From: SAR202 cluster bacterium bin90
Lineage (GTDB): Bacteria > Chloroflexota > Dehalococcoidia > Lucifugimonadales > JADFKI01
Assembly: GCA_002238855.1 (NCBI GenBank)
Contig: MPND01000001.1
Location: 105,008 to 169,007, forward strand
Direction: 5' to 3'
Length of the DNA stretch: 64,000 nt
Part shown: in pieces, positions 16,899 to 22,829 of the stretch
Numbering within the stretch: position 1 is the stretch's first letter
Layout: each line of letters begins with the position of its first letter
Translations under genes and position numbers: made by a program
The notes under the pieces: model-generated
Database searches by the model: none
Told to the model about the DNA's origin: nothing
What the model saw: only the letters and a program-made list of their open reading frames with translations

Positions 16899-17165
16899 TC
16901 ATAGATTCCGATATGTACTTTTGTTTCTGAGAGACACACGCGCTACTGACACGATCTGCCGAGAATCCACAATCTCATAGATAATTCTGTATCGGCCTGC
17001 CCTAATGCGCCAGAAAGGGTTGTTTCCTTTCATTTTTACACTTCCGACAAGTCGTGGATTACCGGATAACCTTGTAAGAGAGCGCTGGATGCGGAGCACC
17101 GCATCAGGAGAAAGACGTCTGAGTTGTCTTCGAGCAGCAGTGGACAATTCGACTCTGTAAGCCAA
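16899..17165 (-). CDS. RelE/ParE-family toxin
   Basis: MAYRVELSTAARRQLRRLSPDAVLRIQRSL...GNNPFWRIRAGRYRIIYEIVDSRQIVSVARVSLRNKSTYRNL. Confidence 0.9.
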   Translation of the reverse strand: MAYRVELSTAARRQLRRLSPDAVLRIQRSLTRLSGNPRLVGSVKMKGNNPFWRIRAGRYRIIYEIVDSRQIVSVARVSLRNKSTYRNL

Positions 17166-17168
17166 CGG

Positions 17169-17414
17169 TTACACTTTTTTCTCCTTCTCTAAGCCCTCAA
17201 AGAATTCGCCAGCCTCTGTACCACCGTTCTCCCACCAGTCCCGACTGGCAGCCTTAATCTCATCCATCTCAAGTTCGTCCATTTCAGTGTCTATCAACCA
17301 CTGCTTCACCGCTTCTTTGATGATTTCCTGAACACTGCATCCGTATTTGGCCGCCGACGCCTCAAGAGCAGCGCACAATTTGTCGTCCTCTAAGAGCAAT
17401 GATACTTCTTGCAT
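17169..17414 (-). CDS. Putative antitoxin of the RelE/ParE pair
   Basis: Directly upstream of and nearly abutting the toxin gene; MQEVSLLLEDDKLCAALEASAAKYGCSVQEIIKEAVKQWL (ribbon-helix-helix-like). ATG at 17414 preceded by GGAAGG. Confidence 0.7.
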   Translation of the reverse strand: MQEVSLLLEDDKLCAALEASAAKYGCSVQEIIKEAVKQWLIDTEMDELEMDEIKAASRDWWENGGTEAGEFFEGLEKEKKV

Positions 17415-17449
17415 AGCGCCTTCCCCTTGATTATCCAAGTGACCGCATT

Positions 17450-19105
17450 CTAGCACGCAGACGGCCCAAATAGAACATCCATATCCTTATCCACCTGCGC
17501 CTTTAACTCCGCCGCCTCAACGAAACCAAGCTCTCTGTACGACTCTGGGCTGCCATATTCACGTGTCTGTATGACCACCGGCATCGGCAGCGCGTGCCCG
17601 AACATCAGCGCCTGTCGATTCGACTCAAGCCGTGCAAGTACCGTCCTCAGCTTGCGGCTGCCTGAGACCCCAGACAGCACCGCATCCGTATCCCGTTCGT
17701 TGTCCAGAAGGCACGCTATCTTTGTTCCGAGCTGGCTCATTACCTCGTCGTCGATCCCACTGGGGCGCTGGTCCACTACGAGCAGAGTGACGTTATACTT
17801 TCGCATCTCCCGCGCAATGTTTCCGAAAATAGTATTCCTGGCGATTGCCGAACTCAGGAACTTGTGCGCCTCCTCGATTGTGATGACAAGTGGTCGTGGC
17901 TGCTGCGTCGCGTCCCCGCTCGCCTGCTCCGACATTCTTACATACCTGTCGTGTATGCGCCGCGTCAGCAGATTTGCAATCAGCAGGTACGCGTCAATGT
18001 TGTTGCCGTAGCGTCCGAACTCCAGCACAACATGCATGCCCCGCCGCAGATAGTTCAGAATCTCGTTCACGGAGTTGCCGCCTCTGCCTTCCGTGATAAA
18101 CCCGAACCGTCTGAGTTGCATGAGGCGGTTCCGAAGCGCCCGAAGTGTCGAAGTCGGGACATTCATATCGCCGGCAAGCGTATTGAATTCTTCCCCACTC
18201 GGGTGTTCGAGAAACATCCGCAGCCAGCTCACCCCGAACTTCTCGCGCAGGGAATGCGCGGTATCTGCGGCAACATCCGACAGTCCCCATGTGTCTCGAA
18301 GAATGTCCACATCCTCCGGCTCTATGTCGTCGTAGCCGATGCTGATTTCGTAGTCCGTGCTGATCCCACGACGGCTCGCGCTTTCCGGATCAAGCGTGAA
18401 CACCGCAACCCGCGAGCTAAACAGCTGCTTCAAGCCCTTCACCTCGTTCGTATGCTCGCTGGAGCCGCGCCAACCGTATTCGCCGTGCATGTCGAAAATC
18501 AGATTGCTCGCGGCGCCGTTCTGCAATATCCCTATCAGGAGCAGCCTAGTCAGGAAGGTCTTGCCAGTGCCGCTCTTGCCGAACACCCCGTTGCTGCGCT
18601 TCACCATCTCGTTGATGTCGAGGCACAGGCGCACTTCCATGTCCATCGGGTTGCCGATGTAGAAATGCCCGGCGTCCTCACTTCCGAACACCATCTGTAT
18701 GTCTTCTTCGTCCGCGAGCGACACACGGGAGAAGTGCGGCGGAATAGTCTTCGCTGGCTGCGCTGTGTTCATCGTATCCGCGCCGATGATGAGCATCGGC
18801 TCCACCGTAATGCTGTTATACGCGACCGTGCCACTCAGGACCTGCGACAGCAGCGGGCGTGAAGCGTCCGGCGGGGCCGCCGTTATGCCGTCGTCCGTCG
18901 ATAGAAGTTCTATCTCGGTCAGCACTCCCAGGAACCGGCTGCGCTGCCCCTGTATGCTCACGAATGTTCCAACTTTGACATCCTCGATCGACACGCCATC
19001 GTCCAGGCGGACCTTGACGCCCTCACTCAGTGAGCCGGATACGACCGTACCCAGTGGCAGGCGTCCGCTGGTTTCCACGGGGTACATTCCATTCGTATGG
19101 TTCAT
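17450..19105 (-). CDS. herA: HerA-type ATPase (DUF87/HAS-barrel, FtsK-HerA superfamily)
   Basis: HAS-barrel-like N-terminus; Walker A GVFGKSGTGKTFLTRLLL, NLIFDMHGEYGWRG, VITIEEAHKFL, LVVDQRPSGIDDEVMSQLGTKIACLL. Confidence 0.9.
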   Translation of the reverse strand: MNHTNGMYPVETSGRLPLGTVVSGSLSEGVKVRLDDGVSIEDVKVGTFVSIQGQRSRFLGVLTEIELLSTDDGITAAPPDASRPLLSQVLSGTVAYNSITVEPMLIIGADTMNTAQPAKTIPPHFSRVSLADEEDIQMVFGSEDAGHFYIGNPMDMEVRLCLDINEMVKRSNGVFGKSGTGKTFLTRLLLIGILQNGAASNLIFDMHGEYGWRGSSEHTNEVKGLKQLFSSRVAVFTLDPESASRRGISTDYEISIGYDDIEPEDVDILRDTWGLSDVAADTAHSLREKFGVSWLRMFLEHPSGEEFNTLAGDMNVPTSTLRALRNRLMQLRRFGFITEGRGGNSVNEILNYLRRGMHVVLEFGRYGNNIDAYLLIANLLTRRIHDRYVRMSEQASGDATQQPRPLVITIEEAHKFLSSAIARNTIFGNIAREMRKYNVTLLVVDQRPSGIDDEVMSQLGTKIACLLDNERDTDAVLSGVSGSRKLRTVLARLESNRQALMFGHALPMPVVIQTREYGSPESYRELGFVEAAELKAQVDKDMDVLFGPSAC

Positions 19106-19728
19106 TCCAGACTCCTCAAAATGCCGCTCAGGCGTGGAAGTTGCCCCGTCAGCGCAACTGCAAGGCTCTTGCCCGCGCCCACAAGATATTGCTGCGGGTC
19201 AGCGTGAGCCGCACTTGCCTGCCGCAGGAAAGACGTGACCACATGGTCCTGTATATGAATCGGGGCATTAAGCAGTGTTGCGAGGAATTCGTGGGTTTCG
19301 CTGAAATTTGCAATCTCACCAGAATCACAGGTACGAACGAACGAATACATGCGGGGCGCGCTCAATGGAGGGTAGTGCAGTACCAGATCGCCATCCCGGT
19401 AGCCGACAATTACCGCCCGGAAGCTCGTGTATAGAAGACGCTCTATCTGTGGATTGCTGCTGAACACATCCGACTCCCTTTCAGCGTTCATCCCGCGCGG
19501 TATCGCTGAACGCCCCGGGTCGATACTCTGCGTCGTCGCCTCGCAGACAATGCCGTATGTTGGCAAATGCTGTCCGCACAGTACCAGACTGCCGATGTCG
19601 GGTGCCTCGTAGAGCCGGTAGCACTGTGCCGTAAACTCCGAAGTCGATGCCTCTATGACCTCGCCGATTCGACCATTCACAGCGCCCTGCATATCCTGAG
19701 CATCCATATAGACCCCGCTCAAATCCAC
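19102..19728 (-). CDS. Uncharacterised protein encoded between nurA and herA (HAS-barrel-like candidate)
   Basis: 208 aa; GTG start at 19728 (alternative ATG at 19707); ORF overlaps the nurA stop and overlaps herA by 4 nt. Family not recognised. Confidence 0.75.
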   Translation of the reverse strand: MDLSGVYMDAQDMQGAVNGRIGEVIEASTSEFTAQCYRLYEAPDIGSLVLCGQHLPTYGIVCEATTQSIDPGRSAIPRGMNAERESDVFSSNPQIERLLYTSFRAVIVGYRDGDLVLHYPPLSAPRMYSFVRTCDSGEIANFSETHEFLATLLNAPIHIQDHVVTSFLRQASAAHADPQQYLVGAGKSLAVALTGQLPRLSGILRSLE

Positions 19729-20927
19729 CGTCGCATCTTGGAGTTGTTCTTTTCGGACGAATACGCCGACATTCCCTGCTGCTCCAGCGCCGAAGCGACT
19801 AGTTCCACGAAATGCTGCCTGTCAGCGCCCGTCACCACAGCCTGCTCGTGCGCCTCCTTCAGAGCTACCGGATAACCCGGCCCCAGACGGCACTGCTCGA
19901 CTACAAGCGAATGTACAAGTCCGAGGAGCGCTTCATCCTCAGCCACCCAGTCCGGCACCTCAACACGCCCGACCTCATCCTCAGTCCGCACATAGAAGAA
20001 ACTAACTCCGTGACCACCATACCTGTTTCTCACGATCTCTGCGTTGCTTCCGAACACAGCCGACCTCTCACTAATGCCCAGAAAATGCGCGAATAGCTGT
20101 CTGTCAAGCACTCCTCCCACTTCCTTGTCGCAGGGCCGTTCATCTCTGCGGATCGTGCCGCACTCCCTATCGCAGCTGGGAACTGGGTAAGGACACACTG
20201 CGACGCGTAGAGCGTTCACCACCTCTCTGCTGCGCGGCAAGCTGATATAGCTCGCGATTGCCAGCGTCCGCCGCGACGACAGGCTCCTTATCTCATCCAG
20301 AAGCGCCACATAATCATCGTCCACCAGTTGCCGCACCACGAAATCGGGATGCCGGTGCATGCCGAAAAGTATCAGCGAACCGTCCACCAGCCCAATCGCT
20401 GGTATGTCCTCGGGTACCTCCCTGAGGGCGTTGAGCAGGCCTCGCAGTTCTTCGACGGCGCGCTTGGCGTCAAGCAGTGCCCCGCTTATCGTCTCCTCGC
20501 GGTACGGCGCATACCTGTCTCTGATAACCAGCTCATCCTGGCTGGCGTACAAGCGCGGCGTGCAGAAAACATCCGCACCCGGCTCATTTCCGTAGCGCAG
20601 CGACATTCCGCCGATATTTATGAGATAGCAGTGTGCCGGAATGTGCCTGCTCACATCTATGTGAGAGCCGTCCACGCCCACGACGCAATGTTCTTCCGGA
20701 ACTGGCGGTGCGACATAGCTGGCGTCCACGCGCTCGTGAACTTGGGGCACACTCCAGTTCAACTCAGTGCCCGGTTGCGCGAGTCTTGTAGCGTATGCTG
20801 CGGGATCGAACGACTGCGCTGCATCCAGCGCGCTCGCGAGGCGCAAGCTCCTGTCCGCAGTCCCGGCGCTCAACGCTGCCGCCATATCGTCTATCTGAAC
20901 TGCCGTGCGATTAAGGTCAAGTGCCAT
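19719..20927 (-). CDS. nurA: NurA-domain DNA repair nuclease
   Basis: CVVGVDGSHIDVSRH (catalytic DGS motif), IGLVDGSLILF, SLPRSREVVNALRVAVCP; coupled to herA. Confidence 0.85.
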   Translation of the reverse strand: MALDLNRTAVQIDDMAAALSAGTADRSLRLASALDAAQSFDPAAYATRLAQPGTELNWSVPQVHERVDASYVAPPVPEEHCVVGVDGSHIDVSRHIPAHCYLINIGGMSLRYGNEPGADVFCTPRLYASQDELVIRDRYAPYREETISGALLDAKRAVEELRGLLNALREVPEDIPAIGLVDGSLILFGMHRHPDFVVRQLVDDDYVALLDEIRSLSSRRTLAIASYISLPRSREVVNALRVAVCPYPVPSCDRECGTIRRDERPCDKEVGGVLDRQLFAHFLGISERSAVFGSNAEIVRNRYGGHGVSFFYVRTEDEVGRVEVPDWVAEDEALLGLVHSLVVEQCRLGPGYPVALKEAHEQAVVTGADRQHFVELVASALEQQGMSAYSSEKNNSKMRRWI

Positions 20928-20966: not shown

Positions 20967-22829
20967 TTACCGGAGGACCCGCGCATCACCGACGCGCCTC
21001 GTTATTCGCTTCTGGTCCAGATAGTCCATCAGCGCCAGCGCGTACTTGCGACTTGTCCCGAGCACATCCCGCACATTCGCGACCGATATATCCCCGTTCT
21101 CACGGATGTAGTCCGAGATTATTGTCACCATCTGTTGATATGCCTCCGTCGAATACACGACACTCTCGCTAACGCGCACCACCTTGCCCTGCTCGTCAAG
21201 CAGATTCAGCACCTCGCCATCGAGATGCGCGTCAGTTGGAGGCGAAAATGGCTCCGATTCTAGCAGGCGCAGGTATGCCTCGACTTCCCGGCTCTGGCTG
21301 TCGTTCAATGTTGGCTCGTAACCCGGTAGCCTCACCAGTGTCCCGTCCTCTTCGACGACTCCTTGCTCCTGGAGCCTCGCGAACGCCAGGTTGAACACTT
21401 GCGCCGACATGACCAATCTGCTGCGCAACTGTTCCTTCGGAGCGCCGCGCCTCAGCGGGAATTGGCGATAGTACGCCTCCAGGGACTGCTGCGTTCTCTC
21501 CACAACCCCGTTCCACCCGCCTGAAGTGAAAACGTAAGTCCCTCTGCCTATGCTTCCTGTCCCCAATTGCACTATCAGGTCGTCGTCTGCCATAGCTTCC
21601 AACTCCGCTTTCACGGTGTCTGCATCCATATTGGCGCGGCTAACGAGCGCGTCGAATTCGCTCGGCTCAGATGTCTCGATGGTTGTCAGCAACACATCTT
21701 GCGTCGAACCCAACTCCATCGCTTCCAGGCGCTCTATTGTGGCCGAATGCCCGCGCCGGTGCCGCCTCGCATGCGTCTCAACAATGTTGCCTCCGCCCAG
21801 CGTGGTGCGGTTCGAGCGTATGACATAGTAGTCATCCTTCACTACCGCCAGCGGCGCGTCCAGCTTGATCTGCGCCCAGCCGGACTCACCCGGTTCCAGC
21901 GAGTCCTGCTCCAGCAGCCGCAGCCGGCCAACTACCTCGCTGCTCCCCGTATGCACAGTGATGTACATGTTGTGCCTAAGCGCATGCGGAGCGTCGGGAA
22001 TAACTCGCAGCCGCACATCCATCGCATCCGTAGGGCGTAGCCAGCCCTCGCTCGTTAGCACCTCGCCTCGCCGGATTTCGTCCTGCGACACGCCGATGAT
22101 GTTAGCTGCTACGCGCGTCCCGGGCTGCGCCTCAGTCTGCCCCTTCTTGTGCGTCTGAAGGCCGCGGATGCGTGTGGACTTCCCAGCCACCACGAGTTCG
22201 ACCTCCTGGCCGGTCTGGATCTTACCGTCAATAAGCGTACCTGTCACGACAGTCCCAAACCCTGAGATAGTAAACGCCCTATCTATGGGCAGGCGTGCCC
22301 GCCCGACATCTCGCTTGGGCGGCGTGTCATCCAGCATAGCGTCAACGGCGGCAATCAGATCGGGCAGCCCTTCTCCAGTCATGGCTGACACAGGGTAGAT
22401 GGCAGCGCCTTCAAGCACGGTGCCCTCAAGAGTCTCCTCGACATCCGCGGTGACTAGTTCGAGCCAGTCCTCATCGACGAGATCGCGCTTCGTCACCGCA
22501 ACCAGTCCCCGCTGCACTCGCAGCAAGTCCAGTATCGCAAGGTGCTCCCGGGTCTGCGGCATTACCGACTCGTCCGCTGCAACCACCAGCAGGGCAAGGT
22601 CGATGCCGCCAACGCCCGCAAGCATGTTATTCACGAACCGCTCATGCCCCGGCACATCTACGATACTGACTTCGTTGCCGCTCGGCAGTTGCAGCCAGGC
22701 GAAACCGAGGTCAATGGTCATGCCGCGCTCCTTCTCCTCGCGCAGCCTGTCCGGATCAATCCCGGTCAGCGCCTCGACCAGCGTCGACTTGCCGTGGTCA
22801 ACATGCCCTGCCGTTCCAATCACATACAT
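20967..22829 (-). CDS. selB: Selenocysteine-specific translation elongation factor SelB-like
   Basis: [61 protein letters not shown], winged-helix C-terminal region. Confidence 0.92.

Follow-up and report, generated by a model that had tools for sequence, protein, structure and literature searches.

A stand-alone HAS-barrel protein is a probable third subunit of the HerA-NurA machine in Chloroflexota and some haloarchaea

Between the genes for the nuclease NurA and the DNA-pump ATPase HerA, the window (the whole stretch of 64,000 nucleotides analysed here) encodes a small protein, called X in the following. X is likely a paralogue of the N-terminal HAS-barrel domain of HerA, with a helical C-terminal domain replacing the motor. 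Jointly with this, we consider it likely that the HerA-NurA machine for DNA-end processing has X as a dedicated third subunit, obligate in Chloroflexota and some haloarchaea. HerA-NurA is known as a two-part machine, and an overlooked third part probably exists there. No stand-alone HAS-barrel partner of HerA-NurA was found described in open-access full texts; the FtsK-HerA superfamily paper (Iyer et al. 2004) may mention one.

The window belongs to a Chloroflexota genome of 4.6 Mb in 213 contigs. The features of the locus are the following:

20967-22829, minus strand: selB, syntenic upstream neighbour and no component of the machine (TIGR00475, E 7.9e-102)
20927-19719, minus strand: nurA, nuclease gene, 402 aa, with stop codon TGA at 19721-19719 (Pfam PF09376, E 2.3e-17, profile positions 3-254 of 254)
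19728-19102, minus strand: X, gene of a predicted stand-alone HAS-barrel protein without ATPase, 208 aa from GTG (AlphaFold and PDB fold search)
19102-19105, minus strand: ATGA overlap of the X stop and the herA start (sequence)
19105-17450, minus strand: herA, hexameric DNA-pump ATPase gene, 551 aa (Pfam DUF87, E 3.8e-29; HAS-barrel, E 1.5e-7)

An earlier note on this DNA had read a minus-strand stack of nurA, X and herA below selB. Its coordinates were reproduced exactly, and Pfam confirmed both NurA and HerA. The NurA match lies above the cut-off and is the only one in the whole genome. HerA has a HAS-barrel of its own at the N-terminus (PF09378, residues 19-69), the DUF87 core and the Walker-type motifs GKSGTGKT and IEEAHKF, which are invariant among its homologues. 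The selB end (20967) and the nurA start are 39 nt apart. Of the two gene overlaps claimed in the note, the 4 nt shared by the X stop TGA (19104-19102) and the herA ATG (19105-19103) are real, whereas that of nurA and X exists only if X starts at GTG 19728, which falls 10 nt within nurA. Judged from the sequence, ATG 19707 (201 aa) would be an equally good start as the GTG (208 aa). The choice is uncertain, because the conserved part of X starts near residue 20 and the starts of its homologues vary just ahead of there. With ATG 19707, a codon just past the nurA stop, nurA and X would not overlap.

Directly after herA, a ribbon-helix-helix antitoxin / ParE toxin pair was found on the minus strand (17169-17456 and 16899-17165). 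The sister genomes G001 and G004 are without this pair, and a MOSC-like gene comes straight after herA there. The pair looks like a recent insertion, outside the machine.

X alone had no match passing the cut-off in Pfam, NCBIfam, PADLOC or PHROGs. Its 32 aligned homologues had a mean column identity of 57%, and 8 of them matched the Pfam HAS-barrel weakly (E up to 1, best E 0.0027); X itself did not reach the PF09378 gathering cut-off. Among PDB sequences, the profiles of the two X types described below (X1 and X2) found no relative, the two matches of X1 having E-values of 0.35 and 1.3. As the sequence-only searches were empty, a fold search was needed. The AlphaFold model of X, built from the 32-homologue alignment, had a pLDDT of 95.5 and a pTM of 0.90. 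With this model, the PDB fold search gave 53 matches at E <= 0.001, and the best 50 of the 53 were all HerA-family proteins (E 1.7e-6 to 7e-4). They included Sulfolobus HerA (1.7e-6), Thermococcus kodakarensis HerA-NurA (5e-6), Deinococcus radiodurans HerA, TdpA, HerA-DUF4297 and HerA-Sir2, and the matched region was their HAS-barrels. TM-scores by query length were modest (0.37-0.50), because the barrel alone aligns. A profile-profile comparison of the merged X family with the HerA N-terminal domain agreed (86% probability, E 4.8e-6, colinear from X 3-132 to HerA 5-137), whereas none of ten shuffled controls, nor the ATPase part of HerA, exceeded 0.2%. The suggestion that X is of the HAS-barrel type, made in the earlier note, was thus borne out. 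The accompanying statement that X is not assignable to a family holds for the sequence libraries, but not for the structure search.

In the model, X consists of a barrel at residues ~18-130 and a helical C-terminal domain of ~70 residues (~135-208). The element order, strand-strand-strand-strand-helix-strand, is the same in a HerA model, at low confidence: four sequences went into that model, its quality is poor (pLDDT 54.7), and it was used for element order only. The modelled X shares the fold of the HerA N-terminal domain as well as its order of strands and helices. From sequence and model together, X is a motor-less HAS-barrel with a C-terminal helical domain, next to a HerA that retains its own barrel. 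Compared with the PF09378 domain, the fold is the same by structure and by profile-profile comparison, but X gives no match by itself and stands as a protein of its own, with a helical domain at the C-terminus. Its best conserved motif is DPxR ... NPQL.RLL, located between strands 4 and 5 in a long loop with short helices (model residues ~51-81); the conserved loop-helix lies around SIDPGR and SNPQIERLL.

The X1 type was found in 50 of 60 relatives and in 119 of 301 Chloroflexota genomes. NurA was present in 189 of the 301 genomes, while PMC9960219 reports the bacterial form of NurA-HerA from just a few bacteria. A lack of X in 72 NurA genomes was considered and rejected: most are explained by X2, a divergent X homologue, and at least one of the others, G096, which counts as NurA-only, has a very divergent X1 adjoining herA. 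X2 occurs in 61 of the 301 genomes and sits between nurA and herA in NurA genomes apparently without X. Its family has 35-38% internal identity and a profile-profile probability of 95% to X over 163 columns. Either X1 or X2 was found in 179 genomes, 175 of them with NurA too; 4 genomes had X only, 14 had NurA only, and both were missing from 108 (Fisher p ~4e-60, a value that ignores kinship; shared ancestry inflates the co-occurrence). Several of the 14 NurA-only genomes had weak NurA scores only (e.g. values of the kind seen in G065 and G121). When 80 selected genomes were examined for HerA, its cognate form (E below 1e-70) was found in 74 of the 74 that were X-positive. Across nearly all sampled Chloroflexota carriers, X is kept together with NurA and HerA.

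Gene neighbourhoods were surveyed, as the note had proposed, and X lies commonly between nurA and herA. In 77 of the 91 genomes with listed places for both X1 and NurA, nurA immediately precedes X on its strand, at most 3 kb away. At 13 of 20 related loci, selB in turn precedes nurA. In 73 of 81 distinct adjacent X-herA pairs, herA could start no more than 20 nt from the X stop. The exact in-frame ATGA occurs in 44 of these 81, as against ~4% by a rough chance estimate, so the translational coupling of X and herA suspected earlier is not due to chance. Coupling between X and nurA is looser (35 of 62). At two loci (L138 and L142), genes are inserted between nurA and X, with X still adjoining herA. 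By eye, the insertions are oxidoreductase-, nucleotidyltransferase- and acetyltransferase-like, and mutually unrelated.

The three genes do not always stay together. In the families f70, f80, f90 and f98, X remains beside nurA, with herA elsewhere. In family f75, X2 remains beside herA, with nurA elsewhere. In G224 and G280, all three genes are dispersed and all three are retained. Retention without linkage argues for a joint function, rather than co-regulation only.

The type of X follows the type of HerA. The HerA tree has two deep clades of ~20% mutual identity; in 88 of 88 labelled rows, X1 accompanies HerA of the first clade and X2 HerA of the second, with zero mismatches. One genome, G103, has a nurA-X1-herA1 set (L113) and a separate X2-herA2 set (L114), each X matching its own HerA clade. 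This genome is a MAG with 4% estimated contamination, and its sets may represent two systems of a single cell, or contaminating DNA that mixes two organisms. Whichever is true, the pairing stands.

These patterns bear on two other readings of X. As a regulatory partner of HerA only, a gate or inhibitor, X would control ring loading or the ATPase without contacting NurA. The exact tracking of the HerA clade by X type speaks for this, as do the tighter coupling to herA than to nurA and the unrelated genes that sometimes intervene between nurA and X. Against it, the four families noted above keep X by nurA and not by herA, and X is nearly missing where NurA is absent (4 of 179). We regard this reading as unlikely. 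Alternatively, X could have a function of its own, e.g. another DNA- or protein-binding role, and share the operon for co-regulation only. Operon membership is by itself no proof of a complex, but the joint retention when dispersed, the exact HerA-type pairing and the fold common to a HerA domain make this the least probable of the explanations weighed here.

Outside the Chloroflexota, tblastn with X2 found four haloarchaeal plasmids (E 2e-17 to 7e-9), and a plasmid search with X1 gave no match. In all four, X is annotated as "hypothetical protein" and is followed by herA with a short overlap. Three of the plasmids carry the order mre11 (metallophosphoesterase)-rad50 (SMC ATPase)-nurA-X-herA; in Halorussus salilacus, the record start cuts into the locus. 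For the Halorussus plasmid NZ_CP099995 (L111), the plasmid database gives a predicted beta-lactamase (DES-1) of 162 bp at 2710-2871, over the herA 3' end, probably a false call. The Pontibacillus plasmid NZ_CP062975 (L112) has nurA-herA-mre11-rad50 without X, so X is not universal. This megaplasmid of a member of the Bacillota thus carries an archaeal-looking set in a Firmicute. Thermus, too, has a nurA-herA pair without X (PMC5448004). In the cyanobacterium UCYN-A, a HAS barrel domain protein and a NurA domain protein are listed among 20 genes that UCYN-A1 has and UCYN-A2 lacks (PMC12234771), a hint that NurA is paired with a HAS-barrel in cyanobacteria as well.

The earlier idea of an "obligate third subunit" therefore stands in a lineage-specific form: in Chloroflexota, X is neither missing nor unrelated at most nurA-herA loci, being present in 175 of 189 NurA genomes, with a cognate HerA in 74 of 74 X-positive genomes examined and the X type matching the HerA clade. 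It does not stand for HerA-NurA generally, given the Pontibacillus and Thermus pairs. NurA-HerA functions without X in Deinococcus, Thermus and archaea, which speaks against X as a universal requirement and means that it is not mechanistically essential everywhere.

Known HerA systems resemble the triad in part. In D. radiodurans (PDB 7wrw, 7f6d), a NurA-family nuclease likewise stands beside a HAS-barrel/DUF87 HerA, in a presumed 2:6 complex docked via the HAS-barrels; the available text of PMC9960219 describes two components and mentions no third gene. The archaeal mre11-rad50-nurA-herA operon of Thermococcus and Sulfolobus (PMC12977600, PMC7776575) shares the core enzymes, and the haloarchaeal plasmid X operons have all four of its genes. 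It differs by the extra X between nurA and herA here, and the window locus has no mre11 and rad50 beside it, unlike the three haloarchaeal X loci. The antiphage systems HerA-Sir2, HerA-DUF4297 and TdpAB also contain a HerA-family pump, and their HAS-barrels are among the fold matches of X. The effector here is NurA, not Sir2 or DUF4297, and the distribution is that of a core-genome system. We know of no stand-alone HAS-barrel subunit in these three systems.

By analogy with HerA-Sir2 and HerA-DUF4297, nurA-X-herA could itself be an antiphage defence, with X as sensor or adaptor, as the earlier note had hinted. PADLOC HerA models match the window HerA (best 7e-34), the haloarchaeal copies are plasmid-borne, and an antiviral function of HerA-NurA is suggested by the group that solved the T. 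kodakarensis structure (PMC12977600). The genomic context gives this hint no support: neither Sir2, DUF4297 nor another defence effector is present, and the partners NurA and X have no PADLOC match. The genes are phylum-wide, nearly always single-copy and in stable synteny with selB, unlike patchy defence islands, and the haloarchaeal copies are linked to mre11-rad50. X was absent from phage genome records and from PHROGs, and a viral structure library held no match to it. A defence role is thus very improbable.

For the role of the triad, we favour housekeeping DNA-end processing over phage defence, a reading of gene context that rests on the haloarchaeal mre11-rad50 linkage and the stable core-genome selB synteny. 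A tendency of triad genomes to be without large AddAB/RecB-type nucleases points weakly the same way: large PDDEXK_1 nuclease ORFs (>= 900 aa) were found in 16 of the 56 genomes with X and in 14 of the 21 without it (Fisher p 0.004). A replacement of AddAB/RecBCD by the triad was considered and rejected, the tendency being weak, the sample small, hand-picked and related, and the window genome having both. Outside the window, that genome has an AddAB-like pair with PDDEXK_1 matches in ORFs of 1061 and 1136 aa (G000:C51:36369-41091), so the triad is not the sole possible end-resection enzyme there.

The solved HerA-NurA complexes suggest where X might act. In them, double-stranded DNA is driven through the pore of the HerA hexamer into a NurA dimer that is docked on the HAS-barrel ring. 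NurA is contacted in T. kodakarensis by HAS helix alpha-1 together with the loop ahead of it (PMC12977600); in D. radiodurans, acidic HAS-barrel residues contact NurA at 2:6 stoichiometry (PMC9960219). The predicted barrel topology of X is that of the HerA HAS domain, and its most conserved stretch lies in the counterpart of the loop-helix region with which that domain docks NurA. We infer that X forms a complex with HerA and NurA, in which it would be placed between NurA and the HerA ring, on the collar of HAS-barrels, would help to load, dock, orient or gate the nuclease, and would influence resection. More tentatively, in a three-subunit HerA-NurA of Chloroflexota, haloarchaea and perhaps cyanobacteria, X could build an additional or mixed collar on the hexamer of HerA and take over NurA docking, which would make the loading, orientation or exchange of NurA independent of the motor; this is possible, though doubtful.

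The role of HerA-NurA is contested, with end resection, degradation of foreign DNA or others under discussion (PMC9960219, PMC12977600), and mechanistic work so far has treated it as a two-protein machine. If X is its third subunit, reconstitutions of HerA-NurA from these lineages without X would be incomplete. The symmetry mismatch between the HerA hexamer and the NurA dimer may then have an evolved solution that is directly visible. In addition, a family without annotation, which the plasmid records call "hypothetical protein" and which matches no library, would gain a named partner and a testable role.
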